The notes beneath the pieces were generated by a model, which worked only from the letters and a program-made list of their open reading frames with translations, had not been told where the DNA came from and made no database searches. A DNA stretch of 7,855 bases from JAFGIT01 sp016929465 [NCBI: Candidatus Coatesbacteria bacterium]. Lineage in GTDB: Bacteria; B130-G9. A program made the translations under genes and the position numbers. Location: positions 1 through 7,855 of the forward strand of contig JAFGIT010000156.1 of NCBI GenBank assembly GCA_016929465.1, written 5' to 3'. Positions 2,148 through 7,855 of the stretch are shown here, one piece after another (position 1 is the stretch's first letter; each line of letters opens with the position of its first letter).

Positions 2148-2192
2148 GTGGAAGACAAGTGATATCTTGGGCGAGCTTCTCGCAACTTCCTT

Positions 2193-2198
2193 GGAGGT
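2193..2198 (+). promoter_or_regulatory. Ribosome binding site that decides the tolQ start
   Basis: GGAGGT lies 8 nt upstream of TTG 2207-2209. No comparable site precedes the in-frame GTG at 2159 or the ATG at 2261, so the TTG is the preferred start. Confidence 0.6.
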
Positions 2199-2206
2199 AT
2201 GGGCAC

Positions 2207-3031
2207 TTGAGTCTGCTTTCGACTGCGAAAACGAGCGTTGTTATCTCATTATTCTCCCAGATGGATGGCCTCGGCATCGGGATAACGGTATTTCTGCTGG
2301 CCGTCTCGGTCTATTCCTGGGCGATAATACTCGAGCGGATCATCTTCTTTAAGGAGATGGAGAGAGGCTTCTGGGAGTTCGAGCGAGTATTTCGCAAGTC
2401 GCAGAAGCTCGAGGCGATTGCATCTGCAATAGAGGACATCCCGGAGAGTGCGCTCTCGAGGATATTTCGGAAGGGGCACTCGGTGCTTAAGGAGAGCCTC
2501 GAGGTGCTTTCGGCAGGGACATCCCATCACGGAAACGAGACCGAGTTGAAGGCCGGCATGGTCGAGATACAGATCGACCTGTTGAAGGAGAGCCTTGGCA
2601 TAGCCGCCGATGACGAGGCGGCCGTTTTCGAGCGGCGTCTCGGAGTGCTCGGGACGATTGCCGCCGCAGGTCCTTTCGTCGGACTTCTCGGAACTGTTTG
2701 GGGGATCATGGTTGCATTTCACAGCATGGGCGGTGCGGGCACGGCGGAATTCCGAGTAGTCGCCGCCGGTATCTCGAGCGCGCTTCTGACGACGGTCGCG
2801 GGACTTCTTGCCGCGATACCGGCTCTCGTCTCGCACAACTACTTCATCCACAAATCTCAGCGGTTCGGGGCGAGGATCGATGAGTTCAACGACAGGTTTC
2901 AGAGGCTTGCCTGGCACAGACTGATGCAGAGCGCCTCGGAACCGTGCGAACAGGACCTGTCGAGTGAACGAGAGCAGCCCATAGAAAGAGAGCAAGCAGG
3001 CGATCAAGAGCCGCGGAGCGAGATCGAATGA
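2207..3031 (+). CDS. tolQ: TolQ/ExbB-family proton channel protein
   Basis: A 274-residue inner-membrane protein of the MotA/TolQ/ExbB family, which with TolR/ExbD uses the proton gradient to energise an envelope process. Membrane segments lie at about 22-43 (ending VSVYSWAIILER, as in TolQ), 145-170 and 184-207. The hallmark LGTIAAAGPFVGLLGTVWGIM spans 148-168, with T150 at the position of the channel threonine; SALLTTVAGLLAAIPA spans 191-206, with T196 at the second. Residues 44-144 form the cytoplasmic loop. The charged tail (243-274) is longer than in typical TolQ and rich in Glu/Gln/Arg. The TTG start is chosen for its GGAGGT site and gives a normal N-terminus; GTG 2159 would add 16 residues. 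The stop overlaps the next start (ATGA), so translational coupling is likely. TolQ versus ExbB cannot be settled, as neither tolA, tolB, pal nor tonB is in the window. Confidence 0.92.
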   Translation: MSLLSTAKTSVVISLFSQMDGLGIGITVFLLAVSVYSWAIILERIIFFKEMERGFWEFERVFRKSQKLEAIASAIEDIPESALSRIFRKGHSVLKESLEVLSAGTSHHGNETELKAGMVEIQIDLLKESLGIAADDEAAVFERRLGVLGTIAAAGPFVGLLGTVWGIMVAFHSMGGAGTAEFRVVAAGISSALLTTVAGLLAAIPALVSHNYFIHKSQRFGARIDEFNDRFQRLAWHRLMQSASEPCEQDLSSEREQPIEREQAGDQEPRSEIE

Positions 3032-3435
3032 GGCTCGGCAGCCGCAGGAGAAACGCAATCACCGACGTTAATATCACGCCGATAGTTGACGTCATGCTCA
3101 TGCTCCTCGTGATCTTCATTCTCACTGCGCCTGTCATCAGGTATGGGCTCGATATCGGCCTGCCAAAGGGAACGTTCGGGGAGGAGAATACACGACATGC
3201 GGTGATCGTCTCGCTCGGGAGGGGGGGCGGCATCTTCGTGCAGGATAGGAGTGTAGAGATGGCTGATCTGGTGGGTGTTCTCGAAGAGGAGCTTCTGACC
3301 GGCCCTGCCTCCAAGGTGATGATCGCTGCCGACAAGAGCATCTCTTATGGTCGCGTTATGGGGATTTTATCCCTGATCAAGACCGCCGGGATAGACAACG
3401 TCTATTTGCTGACGGAACCCGACAAGGGGGAGTGA
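3028..3435 (+). CDS. tolR: TolR/ExbD-family biopolymer transport protein
   Basis: A 135-residue partner of the preceding channel protein. Residues 1-18 are a short basic cytoplasmic stretch ending in the family signature ITDVNITP. A single membrane helix at 19-36 (IVDVMLMLLVIFILTAP) carries D21, which corresponds to the proton-binding Asp of TolR/ExbD. The remaining ~100 residues are the periplasmic domain, ending with the typical AADKSISYGRVMGILSLIKTAGIDNVYLLTEP pattern seen in pieces at 100-131. Length is normal for the family. The start overlaps the upstream stop by 4 nt, fixing ATG 3028. A second-component gene (TolA/TonB-like) would usually follow; instead the next gene is rpmH, so the pair is either an orphan module or serves a partner elsewhere. 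Confidence 0.92.
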   Translation: MRLGSRRRNAITDVNITPIVDVMLMLLVIFILTAPVIRYGLDIGLPKGTFGEENTRHAVIVSLGRGGGIFVQDRSVEMADLVGVLEEELLTGPASKVMIAADKSISYGRVMGILSLIKTAGIDNVYLLTEPDKGE

Positions 3436-3645: not shown

Positions 3646-3780
3646 ATGAAACGAACATTTCAACCTCACAACTTAAGACGAAAGCGGACACACGGCTTCT
3701 TGGTCAGAATGCGATCGAAGCGAGGCCAGCAGGTCATCGCGCGGCGCCGGTCCAAGGGCCGGGATCGTCTTTCAGTCTGA
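3646..3780 (+). CDS. rpmH: 50S ribosomal protein L34
   Basis: A 44-residue, strongly basic protein with the invariant L34 layout: start MKRTFQP, then N9-L10, RRKRTHGF (11-18), RM (21-22), and the C-terminal [10 protein letters not shown] (30-39) ending RLSV. Length is exactly typical. L34 is a component of the large ribosomal subunit. AAAGG (3633-3637) lies 8 nt before ATG 3646 as a weak ribosome binding site. It heads the classic rpmH-rnpA-yidD-yidC cluster and is followed after 37 nt by the fused rnpA-yidD frame. Confidence 0.97.
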
Positions 3781-3817: not shown

Positions 3818-4438
3818 TTGCCAAAACGGGGCATCGATTACGAGCGCTTAAGGCTCAATTCTGAATTCAGGCGTTTATATAGCGAAGGGCGTCGCGTCTC
3901 GGGCTCGAGCATCGTCGTGTTTGGCAGGCAGAGCGATGACTGTGCATTGCCCAGATTCGGCGTATCCGTAAGTCGCAAGGTCGGTAATGCTGTCGTCCGA
4001 AATCGAGTGAAGCGCCTCCTACGGGAGGCTTTCTTGAATCTCGTGTCAGATCTCGCACCCAATTGGGAATTTGTCATCTGCGCGAGGCCGTCTATTGCTG
4101 ATAAGCGCTTTGGAGATGTTTTGGATGATCTAGGAAGGGCCCTCGGAAGGCTGTCAAGAACCTCGAAAAGGCAGGACCCCAAACGCGCATCGGCCCGCGA
4201 TGTGGCAAGCAAGGTCCTCTCGCTGCCTATCATCTTTGCTCTTATCTTGTATAAGCGAACCGTCTCGCCATTCATGTCTCCTTGCTGTCGATTCGAGCCG
4301 ACATGCTCAGAATACGCGATAACTGCATACCGCAGGCACAACATCCTGCGCGCCACGGGTCTTGCAATTGCAAGGCTTCTGAGATGTCAGCCTTTCTGCA
4401 AGGGGGGATACGACCCAGTCCCCGAGGCGAGGGACTAA
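3818..4438 (+). CDS. rnpA-yidD: Ribonuclease P protein component fused to YidD membrane-insertion factor
   Basis: One uninterrupted 206-residue frame carries two normally separate proteins. Residues 8-115 are RnpA, the protein subunit of RNase P that matures tRNA 5' ends with the RNA subunit: LRLNSEFRRLYSEGRR (11-26) and the signature SVSRKVGNAVVRNRVKRLLREAF (50-72) with R61-N62-R63. Residues 131-203 are YidD, a small inner-membrane-associated protein that aids YidC-dependent insertion: LYKRTVSPFMSPCCRFEPTCSEYA (144-167), LLRCQPF (188-193) and GGYDPVP (196-202). Cysteines lie at 156, 157, 163, 190 and 194. A basic linker (about 116-130) joins them. No stop separates the parts; in most genomes rnpA ends near the yidD start. 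An in-frame GTG at 4202 could give free YidD of 79 residues, but it lacks a good ribosome binding site. The start is TTG 3818, the only sensible one in frame, with a weak upstream site. A sequencing error removing a stop is possible but would need a substitution, since both halves are in the same frame. Confidence 0.9.
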   Translation: MPKRGIDYERLRLNSEFRRLYSEGRRVSGSSIVVFGRQSDDCALPRFGVSVSRKVGNAVVRNRVKRLLREAFLNLVSDLAPNWEFVICARPSIADKRFGDVLDDLGRALGRLSRTSKRQDPKRASARDVASKVLSLPIIFALILYKRTVSPFMSPCCRFEPTCSEYAITAYRRHNILRATGLAIARLLRCQPFCKGGYDPVPEARD

Positions 4439-4471: not shown

Positions 4472-6439
4472 ATGGAGACCAAGAATCTCATTCTCGCGGT
4501 TGTCCTCGTCATCCTCGTGATGATGGTGTACAACTACTTCTTCGCACCAAAGCCGAAGCCAAAAGCAGACGATCTGACGACCTCCCAGACCGAATTAGCG
4601 GAGAAATCGCAGCCCGCTTCCAGTTCTGAAGATGCCGTCAAGAAGTATATCGAGAGGCAGATGGTGAGTAAGGATGCCGGCAATTCCCTGGAGCTTCAGG
4701 CCGAGGAGAATCCCGAAAAGGAGATAGTAGTCCAAACAGACCTGTTCACAGCCGTGTTTTCGACTGATGGTGGAGCGATAAAGAGCTTCAGATTGCGGCG
4801 CTACAAGGACCTTCCCCCGGAGTTCAGGACGGCAAAAGAGAAGCTCCTTCGAGATGCCGCCGGTGACGAGCCTTTGAACGAATTTCAACTGGCAAACGCG
4901 AGAAAGACGCTATCTGAAGCGTACAACGCCTTCCGGGAGAATTACCTCGGCAAGAGGGAACTGACCTCAGAGGAAGAGGACAAGATCGGGGAATTGGTCG
5001 AGCAGTTCGGCCCCGCCGCAAAGCGGGTCTATAACACCGATCTTCTCAAGAGGCGCGCGACCGCGAAGAGGATCAGAGAGAGCATGCCCCCGGAAGACGA
5101 CTCTGGAGACTCATATCAGGATGAGAACTGGCGCAGGATAGAGCAGCTCGAAGGTGTCGAGCTCGTCCCTCCCTACCTCTCGGAGATAGGGGAATACATG
5201 CTCCAGACAGTTTACCAAAGCCACGGCTCGGAGGCGGGGAAGTCATTCAAGACGGTTCAGTTCGAAACGAGCGCTCCCGAGAGAATAACGCTGAATTCAG
5301 CTGACGGCGTCCAGACGCTGCGCTTCGAGACCTCCTTCAATGAAGGGGCAATAAGGCTCACAAAGGAATACAGGATAGATCCGGACAGCTATACGCTCGA
5401 TCTCTCGTATGAGGTGCAGAATTCATCATCGGCAACAGTCGAAGTGCCTAGCTTCGAAACCTGGCTCGGTCCCGACATAGGTTCAGCCGGGATTGAGCAG
5501 AAGGGCAGGTATTCCGCCGGGGGAATCGCGGCACTCGGGGAGGGCAATATTCTCACAGATGCATTTGGATTCAACGACCTGCTGGACTGGGCAGCACTGC
5601 AGGACCGCTATTTTATAGTAGCGCTGGTGGCCAAAGAAGATTGGCTCATCGGCTCCAATCCCTTCCTCGGCGGGTATTACTTGAGATGGGTCGTCCCCGC
5701 ATCTGACGGCATGAAGTCGAGCGTCAGGCTATTCGCCGGGCCAAAGGACATCGACCAACTGAAGAAATTCGGCGATGGACTGGAGAGAGTCGTTGACTTC
5801 GGCTGGTTCTCCTTCATATCCGAGCCGCTTTATGTCATATTGAAGTACATCTACTCACTTCTCGGCAACTACGGCCTGGCCATCATAGTCCTCGCCCTGC
5901 TAATCAAGATTGTCTTCTATCCGCTTACCGTCAAGCAGACCAAATCGATGAAGAAGATGCAGCTGGTTCAGCCCAAGATGAAAGAGCTCCGCGAGAGATA
6001 TAAGAACGACAAGGAGCGTCTCAACAAGGAGATAATGGAGCTCTATAAGAAGCATGAGGTGAATCCCATGGGCGGCTGCCTCCCGATGCTCATACAATTC
6101 CCGATCCTGATCGCTCTCATTAGAGTTCTGCCAATCGTTATCGACCTACGGCAGGCCCCATTCATCCTCTGGCTGCACGACCTTTCAGAGCCCGATCCGT
6201 ATTACATAACACCTATTCTGATGGGTGTTGCTATGATTGTGCAGCAGAAGCTGACTCCATCGAGCGATCCGAAGCAGGCGCGGATGATGCTGATGATGTC
6301 GGTCGTGTTCACTTTCTTCTTCCTCAACTTCTCATCCGGACTCGTGCTCTACTGGCTCTGTGGGACTGTATTCCAGCTGATTCAGCAGCTGATCATGAAC
6401 AAGAGAGACGAACAGGCCAAGGCGGTATCGACGACTTAA
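4472..6439 (+). CDS. yidC: Membrane protein insertase YidC (long form)
   Basis: A 655-residue inner-membrane insertase of the YidC/Oxa1/Alb3 family, which inserts and folds membrane proteins alone or with SecYEG. It has an N-terminal helix (6-23), a Pro/Lys stretch (26-31), a large periplasmic domain (about 85-440), then five C-terminal helices: about 464-485, 533-556, 575-592 and two within 606-640. Signatures include IKIVFYPLT (478-486), KKMQLVQPKMKELRERY (494-510), NPMGGCLPMLIQFPI (531-545) and APFILWLHDLS (562-572). K479 occupies the hydrophilic-groove position of the catalytic Arg (R366 in E. coli), a known conservative alternative. Gram-negative YidC is usually near 550 residues; the excess is a charged, helix-prone insertion at about 114-260 between two periplasmic strands. 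AGGA (4459-4462) lies 9 nt before ATG. It follows rnpA-yidD by 33 nt, presumably in one operon. jag and mnmE do not follow. Confidence 0.96.
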   Translation: METKNLILAVVLVILVMMVYNYFFAPKPKPKADDLTTSQTELAEKSQPASSSEDAVKKYIERQMVSKDAGNSLELQAEENPEKEIVVQTDLFTAVFSTDGGAIKSFRLRRYKDLPPEFRTAKEKLLRDAAGDEPLNEFQLANARKTLSEAYNAFRENYLGKRELTSEEEDKIGELVEQFGPAAKRVYNTDLLKRRATAKRIRESMPPEDDSGDSYQDENWRRIEQLEGVELVPPYLSEIGEYMLQTVYQSHGSEAGKSFKTVQFETSAPERITLNSADGVQTLRFETSFNEGAIRLTKEYRIDPDSYTLDLSYEVQNSSSATVEVPSFETWLGPDIGSAGIEQKGRYSAGGIAALGEGNILTDAFGFNDLLDWAALQDRYFIVALVAKEDWLIGSNPFLGGYYLRWVVPASDGMKSSVRLFAGPKDIDQLKKFGDGLERVVDFGWFSFISEPLYVILKYIYSLLGNYGLAIIVLALLIKIVFYPLTVKQTKSMKKMQLVQPKMKELRERYKNDKERLNKEIMELYKKHEVNPMGGCLPMLIQFPILIALIRVLPIVIDLRQAPFILWLHDLSEPDPYYITPILMGVAMIVQQKLTPSSDPKQARMMLMMSVVFTFFFLNFSSGLVLYWLCGTVFQLIQQLIMNKRDEQAKAVSTT

Positions 6440-6518: not shown

Positions 6519-6533
6519 CCCTGATTCTCAGGG
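6519..6533. terminator. Hairpin spanning the stop of the minus-strand ILEI gene
   Basis: CCCTGA, loop TTC, TCAGGG (6-bp stem). It overlaps the TGA of the minus-strand gene and lies 80 nt after the yidC stop, so it could act on either or both convergent transcripts. No T tract follows on either strand. Confidence 0.3.
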
Positions 6534-7855
6534 GGAGGCGAGATATACGTCGCTATCTAGTCCCTTGCCTGACATATAGACAACGGCTCGATTTTCCTCG
6601 GAAGCCCTCTTCTTGATATTGGCCCTGACTTCAGCTTCATCGGTTCCGAAGTCACGCGGGCCGCATACTTCGAGACTCGATGAGCCTCGTCCCTGCATCT
6701 CGAGCGCAGTGCCGGCCGATGCGCCTTTGACGCCAATGACGCAATGAGACCACAGGTATCTGTCGGGCTCGACCATCGCAAATTCGCCCCCAATGCTCTC
6801 AAATGAGTTAAAAAGGTCAGGCGACACCTTGGTCTTGCCCTTGGCCGCCAGCACAACGACCGTTCCTGCAGGGAACCTCGCTATCATCCGGGCCAACCTA
6901 AGCTCGTCATTCTTACGAGCGATCGCATCGAATCGACCGGATGCAATCACTTCCTTTGTCTTCGGATCGATCGCGACCAGGTTGTAGCCCCTTAGATTTG
7001 CCGACACATCGACTCCATTGACCAGGATACTCCCGAAGTTGCCGTGGAATTCTCCAGCACTTCTAACTGAGATATCGCACGGTGCTGAGACGCCGGTCTG
7101 GCCGATCTTCTCGCCGCCCGGGAAGACGAGCTGCATGCCGTATATCTCGAACAGCCGGGAGAGGTCGCTCCAGTGCATAAGCTCGACAACTGACCAGCTC
7201 GAGTGAAGTTCGGCGGGTATGAGCGATTTGACATTGGTCTTTCCGACCTTCGTGCCTCGCGAACTCTTCTCGAATTCGCCAATGCGAGAGCCGATGCCGG
7301 AGACCTCCATCAGGCTTTTCAGCGCCTGAGCAGCATCCCGCCAGTCCGAATTGACACTATCGACATAGACCTGCCAGAAGAGAGGCTCTGATTCGGAACC
7401 ACTCTTCATGCAATCGCTAAGGCGGGCCTTGGCTCGTACCCACTCACTGAGCAGGGAATGCACCTTGCCCATGTAGCAGGAATTGTCCTTGATGTTATCG
7501 AGCACACTGAGCAGCTTGTCATCCTTACCTGCAAGTATATGCTGGGATGGGAAGACGAAGTAGTAATCGTCCTCGAGCTTCTTCAAATCCTTCCATTCAT
7601 TGAATGCCCTGTCTATCTGACCCTGGGCGAAATCATCCCTGCTGCGCTTGTAGAGATCCTCGATGCCGGTCAAAGCTATTTCGCGCATCTTGGCCTCCGA
7701 TGGGGCGCTATCCCTCTCAATCCGACGCACCTTGATATACTTCGCCATCGCATCGGTGTAGTCCCCTGATTTGAGCTCGGACTCCGCGCGGGACCTCAGC
7801 ATAGAGGGAAGATTCGAGACCTGCATTGCGACAGCAAATGCAAGGATGAGTACCA
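6528..7855 (-). CDS. ILEI/PANDER (FAM3-type) domain protein with TPR-like N-terminal helices (5' end outside window)
   Basis: Numbering is from ATG 7826 (432 residues to the stop), but the frame stays open to the window edge and the extra codons read VLILAFAVA. This hydrophobic stretch suggests that the true start lies upstream and that the protein is exported or membrane-anchored. Residues 8-90 are helical with TPR-like pairs (AESELKSGDYTDAMAKYI; IDRAFNEWKDLKKLEDDY), and another helical block runs 120-175. Residues 251-378 match the ILEI/PANDER domain: ISVRSAGEFHGNFGSILVNG, then LRGYNLVAIDP (278-288), SGRFDA (296-301), DELRLARMIARFPAGTVVVLAAKG (307-330), FNSFESIGG (339-347), RYLWSHCVIGVKG (356-368). 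In animals this fold occurs in FAM3 cytokine-like proteins and in the POMGNT1 stem, which binds glycans; bacterial versions are uncharacterised. A carbohydrate-binding envelope role is inference. Residues 380-432 are not recognised. It converges on yidC and is probably unrelated to that operon. Confidence 0.75.
   Translation of the reverse strand, partial: VLILAFAVAMQVSNLPSMLRSRAESELKSGDYTDAMAKYIKVRRIERDSAPSEAKMREIALTGIEDLYKRSRDDFAQGQIDRAFNEWKDLKKLEDDYYFVFPSQHILAGKDDKLLSVLDNIKDNSCYMGKVHSLLSEWVRAKARLSDCMKSGSESEPLFWQVYVDSVNSDWRDAAQALKSLMEVSGIGSRIGEFEKSSRGTKVGKTNVKSLIPAELHSSWSVVELMHWSDLSRLFEIYGMQLVFPGGEKIGQTGVSAPCDISVRSAGEFHGNFGSILVNGVDVSANLRGYNLVAIDPKTKEVIASGRFDAIARKNDELRLARMIARFPAGTVVVLAAKGKTKVSPDLFNSFESIGGEFAMVEPDRYLWSHCVIGVKGASAGTALEMQGRGSSSLEVCGPRDFGTDEAEVRANIKKRASEENRAVVYMSGKGLDSDVYLASP

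Follow-up and report, generated by a model that had tools for sequence, protein, structure and literature searches.

Can RnpA, the protein subunit of the tRNA-trimming enzyme RNase P, and YidD, the membrane protein insertion efficiency factor, be made as a single polypeptide, and what would such a chain do in the cell? The genes rnpA and yidD are adjacent in many bacteria, and we know of no accepted reason for their having stayed so; a natural fusion, in which the essential RnpA has to function with YidD attached, would allow one to ask directly if RNase P and membrane insertion can occupy one place in the cell. The question is raised by a stretch of 7,855 nucleotides, referred to here as the window, which is an entire contig of a genome (G000) of 3.19 Mb, assembled in 423 contigs and 86% complete.

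Analysis of the open reading frames of the window revealed one uninterrupted frame of 206 codons on the forward strand, from a TTG at 3818 to a stop codon at 4436–4438 (Table 1). As the earlier note had proposed, complete RnpA and YidD both lie within it. The Pfam Ribonuclease_P profile is aligned at positions 5–108 of 109 and scores 96.7 bits against a curated cut-off of 22.3; the YidD profile is aligned at positions 5–67 of 67 and scores 86.7 bits against 27. The NCBIfam models TIGR00188 (RnpA half, 78.3 bits, cut-off 38.35) and TIGR00278 (YidD half, 65.1 bits, cut-off 40) give the same picture. The sequence RNRVKRLLRE in the first half is the RNR motif, and the segment ahead of the YidD domain is hydrophobic without being clearly amphipathic. 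The calculated mass of the whole is 23.3 kDa, in line with the ~23 kDa that the note had given. Initiation at TTG 3818 is supported by the retention of TTG as codon 1 of rnpA in each of the four genomes of the family described below and by an in-frame stop codon just upstream of it in one of them, G002.

Table 1. The fused rnpA–yidD gene, its parts and its neighbours, in positions of the window
Feature	Coordinates	Strand	Evidence and remarks
Fused rnpA–yidD, 206 aa, TTG start	3818..4438	+	ORF, Pfam, NCBIfam; fused in G001 and G003 too
RnpA domain, residues 9–112, with RNRVKRLLRE	3842..4153	+	Pfam PF00825, E 1.1e-27; AlphaFold model similar to solved RNase P proteins
Basic linker, codons 113–128	4154..4201	+	Codon table; pLDDT <50 at residues 118–125; pI 11.6
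In-frame GTG, codon 129, candidate internal YidD start	4202..4204	+	Anti-Shine-Dalgarno pairing −1.7 kcal/mol
YidD domain, residues 139–201 (CCRFEPTCSEYA ... GGYDPVP)	4232..4420	+	Pfam PF01809, E 9.2e-25
rpmH, ribosomal protein L34, directly 5′ of the fused gene	3646..3780	+	Pfam PF00468, 1.9e-21; TIGR01030
yidC, membrane protein insertase, 655 aa, directly 3′ of the fused gene	4472..6439	+	Pfam PF02096 and PF14849
MotA/TolQ/ExbB-family gene	2159–3031		Pfam
ExbD/TolR-family gene	3028–3435		Pfam

Elsewhere in the window, a gene convergent with yidC (6528–7853, reverse strand) encodes an ILEI-domain protein (PF15711, 3e-12), which also neighbours the fusion in G001. The region 1–181 holds a cysteine-rich open frame (1–156) truncated by the contig start. 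On the reverse strand, a 283-residue frame at 919–1770 has hydrophobic stretches as judged by eye and gave no match in Pfam or NCBIfam. A perfect 22-nucleotide inverted repeat with a 3-nucleotide loop spans positions 1891–1937, in a stretch to which no gene is assigned, and a scan of the window with Rfam at gathering scores returned no match.

The sample of this phylum comprises four genomes, 83–95% complete and all of one family: that of the window, G001 and G003, which form a second genus, and G002, which represents a sister genus. The earlier note had pointed to related genomes as the place to look for the same architecture, and a stop-free fusion of 211 codons is indeed found in G001 and G003, whose proteins are 59% and 57% identical, respectively, to that of G000. 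The proteins align without insertions or deletions apart from five extra C-terminal residues in G001 and G003. The two halves, which the note had judged intact, are thus full-length and joined in an open frame in three genomes. It had also named a stop codon at residues ~115–130 in relatives as evidence against a fusion. One of the three relatives has such a stop: in G002, rnpA ends with TAA at codon 117, giving an RnpA of 116 residues, with yidD behind it in an unchanged frame. G001 and G003 do not. Since both of these are fused, we read the G002 stop as showing that a sister genus is unfused, and not as a sign of error in G000; not every member of the family, then, need carry the fusion. Codon 117 is AAA in G000 (4166–4168) and CGC in G001 and G003, and the fusion would have arisen most simply if the stop codon of rnpA was lost when the two neighbours already shared a frame. 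The family would then illustrate clearly how two genes become fused once a stop codon disappears, the genes being separate in a sister genus. We conclude from these comparisons that the open frame is, with near certainty, a genuine and rare fusion of known parts, common to two genera.

The rarity of the architecture emerged from surveys of other genomes. In a first survey of 60 genomes, the only full-length, stop-free matches listed were those of G000, G001 and G003. Among the matches listed for 386 genomes, 367 of which gave a match, three were full-length and stop-free, all in this family, and at least 25 others, that of G002 included, cover both domains with at least one stop codon in each; the two surveys overlap, and a low-scoring fusion may lie beyond the matches listed. 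The phylum of genome G054 was surveyed through 398 evenly drawn genomes. Matches with E values of 1e-22 or better came from 63 of these, 7 of them partial; none of the 56 that cover both domains (one of which is short at its end) is fused, and all contain a stop. Three matches from a small phylum of four genomes likewise contain stops. We also compared named genome loci of relatives, taking the best 80 out of 93; they are not a random sample because they were recruited with peptide patterns of the fused protein itself. None is fused: rnpA and yidD share a frame with an intervening stop in 12 and lie in different frames in 64, and in the other 4 one gene is absent from the stretch examined. Regions in which yidD lies inside a long open frame, or which gave a co-linear match, numbered twenty (two of them in the set already) and a further seven, and yielded no single frame containing both domains; at two of these loci, L170 and L199, rnpA was not detected. 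Genome G028, which open frames of equal length had made look fused, was rejected on account of a stop codon between rnpA and yidD. A widespread RnpA–YidD architecture is therefore not supported, there being no fusion outside the family among the matches listed and the loci compared.

How often the two genes were joined is a question of history, and the answers to it are compatible with the best explanation given below. It is plausible, though less likely than not, that a single fusion took place in the family ancestor and that G002 was split again by gaining a stop, as opposed to having kept an ancestral unfused state. A tree of RnpA, YidD and YidC (26 rows, 680 columns) places G002 beside G001 and G003 with support of 98/97, FastTree versions of it agree (0.79–0.90), and grouping the three fused genomes in a single clade is disfavoured (p-AU 0.035); this tree is equally consistent with two separate fusions. 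Against a later split, a partial RpoB and RpoC tree, built without G003, weakly favours the pairing of G000 with G001 (91/71), the pairing of G001 with G002 being just 0.27 log units worse. Moreover, tolQ–tolR on the 5′ side of the fusion and the ILEI gene on its 3′ side are common to G000 and G001, and neither was seen by eye in a 12-kb stretch of G002, in which Pfam was run on rnpA and one other gene. These trees and gene orders are compatible with a single fusion, with two, and with a fusion followed by a split.

PF00825 matches once in each of the four genomes of the family, so that no RnpA other than the fusion was found in the fused genomes. Class A RNase P RNA (RF00010) is present in three of the four, scoring 314.6 bits in G000; a search with the same model did not find it in G003 (83% complete). 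PF08745, the HARP family of protein-only RNase P, is found in none of the four, and this speaks against such an enzyme having freed RnpA from its duty. The single RnpA, the RNA in three genomes and the lack of a HARP match together indicate that the fused protein is probably an RNase P subunit, and that it serves as the working RnpA is a conclusion we hold with considerable confidence. A passage in PMC10941002 describes RnpA as essential in cells of bacteria with an RNA-based RNase P.

An AlphaFold model of the fusion, calculated from a 12-row alignment in which the rows other than the fusion read the stop as Q, has a mean pLDDT of 78.9. Ten-residue means of 83–94 over residues 11–110 define an RnpA fold. 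Beyond the poorly modelled linker residues a helix spans 126–148, and the YidD part has two further helices of lower confidence (blocks 51–83). With a pTM of 0.56, the placing of the two halves relative to each other is not trustworthy. Foldseek with this model gave 16 matches in the PDB at E ≤0.001. The titles of fifteen name an RNase P protein or holoenzyme, the proteins of S. aureus, B. subtilis, T. maritima and E. coli among them, and the title of the remaining one, 4jg4, does not name its kind. YidD is not named among the 50 matches listed.

Overall, the observations are probably best explained by a stop-loss fusion that gave rise to an RnpA–YidD chain serving as the sole RnpA and held at the membrane. 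The parts of this explanation differ in strength. Translation as a single polypeptide is very likely: ribosomes would initiate at TTG 3818 to give a chain of 23 kDa. Its N-terminal half would bind RNase P RNA and act as the sole protein component of that enzyme in the cell, and the flexible basic linker would connect this half to YidD. From work in E. coli, YidD is known to associate with the membrane. The hydrophobic first helix of YidD would lie on the inner membrane, beside YidC/Sec, so that RNase P would be held there, partly or wholly, and YidD would be produced one-to-one with RnpA. Such tethering as a physiological fact is finely balanced, and we lean slightly against it; the segment ahead of the YidD domain, not clearly amphipathic, counts on the opposing side. 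The strictest form, in which the YidD tail permanently anchors the family's RNase P at the inner membrane, tRNA 5′ maturation takes place beside YidC/Sec and the ratio of RnpA to YidD is fixed at one, we regard as rather doubtful. Two published statements bear on the location: a table in PMC8082313 counts YidD among the putative Sec-network factors, and a passage in PMC6883915 cites Miczak et al. (1991) for anchoring of the E. coli RNase P protein to the inner membrane.

Free YidD could arise alongside the fused chain by internal initiation at GTG 4202 or nearby; the free form would then be the active one and the tail on RnpA would be tolerated. Free YidD made in this way in the fused genomes is possible; the arrangement as a whole seems to us unlikely. 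The GTG does lie within the frame, as the earlier note had it. Its position is not conserved, codon 129 being no start codon in G001, G003 or G002. Codon 133 is GTG in G001 and TTG in G003, and these match by eye, across a gap of one codon, the ATG of G002 yidD, for which a GTG further upstream is the alternative start; the G000 GTG lies four codons earlier. A start codon of some kind is thus found near the beginning of YidD in all four genomes, but one within ~20 codons would probably be unsurprising by chance. Pairing was scored against an assumed canonical anti-Shine-Dalgarno sequence. The candidate starts of G001 and G003 pair at −2.6 and −2.1 kcal/mol, and all three candidates, that of G000 included, are weaker than the yidC starts of the same genomes (−4.8, −5.6 and −3.5 for G000, G001 and G003, respectively). 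The G000 rnpA and rpmH starts score −2.6 and −3.2, and the G002 ATG −4.6. The measure is a poor discriminator between true starts and interior sites, however, because across the four genomes 780 interior codon sites have a median equal to the value of the rnpA start (−2.6) and a quarter of them reach −5.3 or stronger; weak pairing is thus no ground for dismissing the internal sites.

G000 also contains a second, divergent YidD-domain protein of 149 residues (contig C74, L002:1354–1803; PF01809, 6.5e-17), the N-terminal stretch of which looks hydrophobic by eye. A second match comparable to it is present in all four genomes of the family. This protein could act as a supplier of YidD function, which counts against the explanation preferred above.

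Less probable again is cleavage of the full-length chain within the linker, releasing RnpA and YidD as ordinary separate proteins, in which case the fusion would be a neutral accident. The loss of a stop codon between same-frame neighbours needs one substitution, and the linker could be a protease target because it is basic, modelled with low confidence at 118–125 and fast-evolving. Four of its 25 residues are identical between G000 and G001, and between G001 and G003 dN is 0.25 and dS 0.89, values from 25 codons, too short a stretch to decide on selection, in a codon comparison of linker and YidD that leaves out G002. Against an accident, the linker has acquired neither stops nor frame-changing indels in three genomes despite its sequence change, though 25 stop-free codons are weak evidence by themselves. 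Finally, a stop or frameshift missed through sequencing or assembly error, for which the fragmented G000 assembly might give grounds, can be set aside almost entirely, as G001 and G003, at 57–59% identity, have the same stop-free frame, three assemblies cannot credibly share the error and, with both genes of the unfused G002 in one frame, no frameshift error is needed.

Among the titles and abstract openings listed from an open-access library we found no RnpA–YidD fusion, which does not imply that none has been reported in print, and none is mentioned in passages of PMC10941002, PMC10502375, PMC8082313, PMC6883915, PMC4863248 and PMC10490939. Where these passages use the word fusion, it refers to tags (PMC4863248) or to the eukaryotic PRORP (PMC10941002). 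Compared with bacterial RnpA as defined by PF00825 and TIGR00188, the fused protein has the full domain and the RnpA fold, and is encoded by a single-copy gene in a genome with class A RNase P RNA; it differs in the in-frame YidD domain at its C-terminus, whereas the RnpA of G002 stops at 116 residues. Like YidD as defined by PF01809 and TIGR00278, it has the complete conserved domain encoded directly ahead of yidC, but this copy is joined to RnpA through a basic linker, and any start of its own is at most a candidate. The order rpmH–rnpA–yidD–yidC is described for E. coli and many other bacteria in passages of PMC10941002, PMC10502375 and PMC4863248. The fused locus retains this order, with the difference that rnpA and yidD are here one frame.
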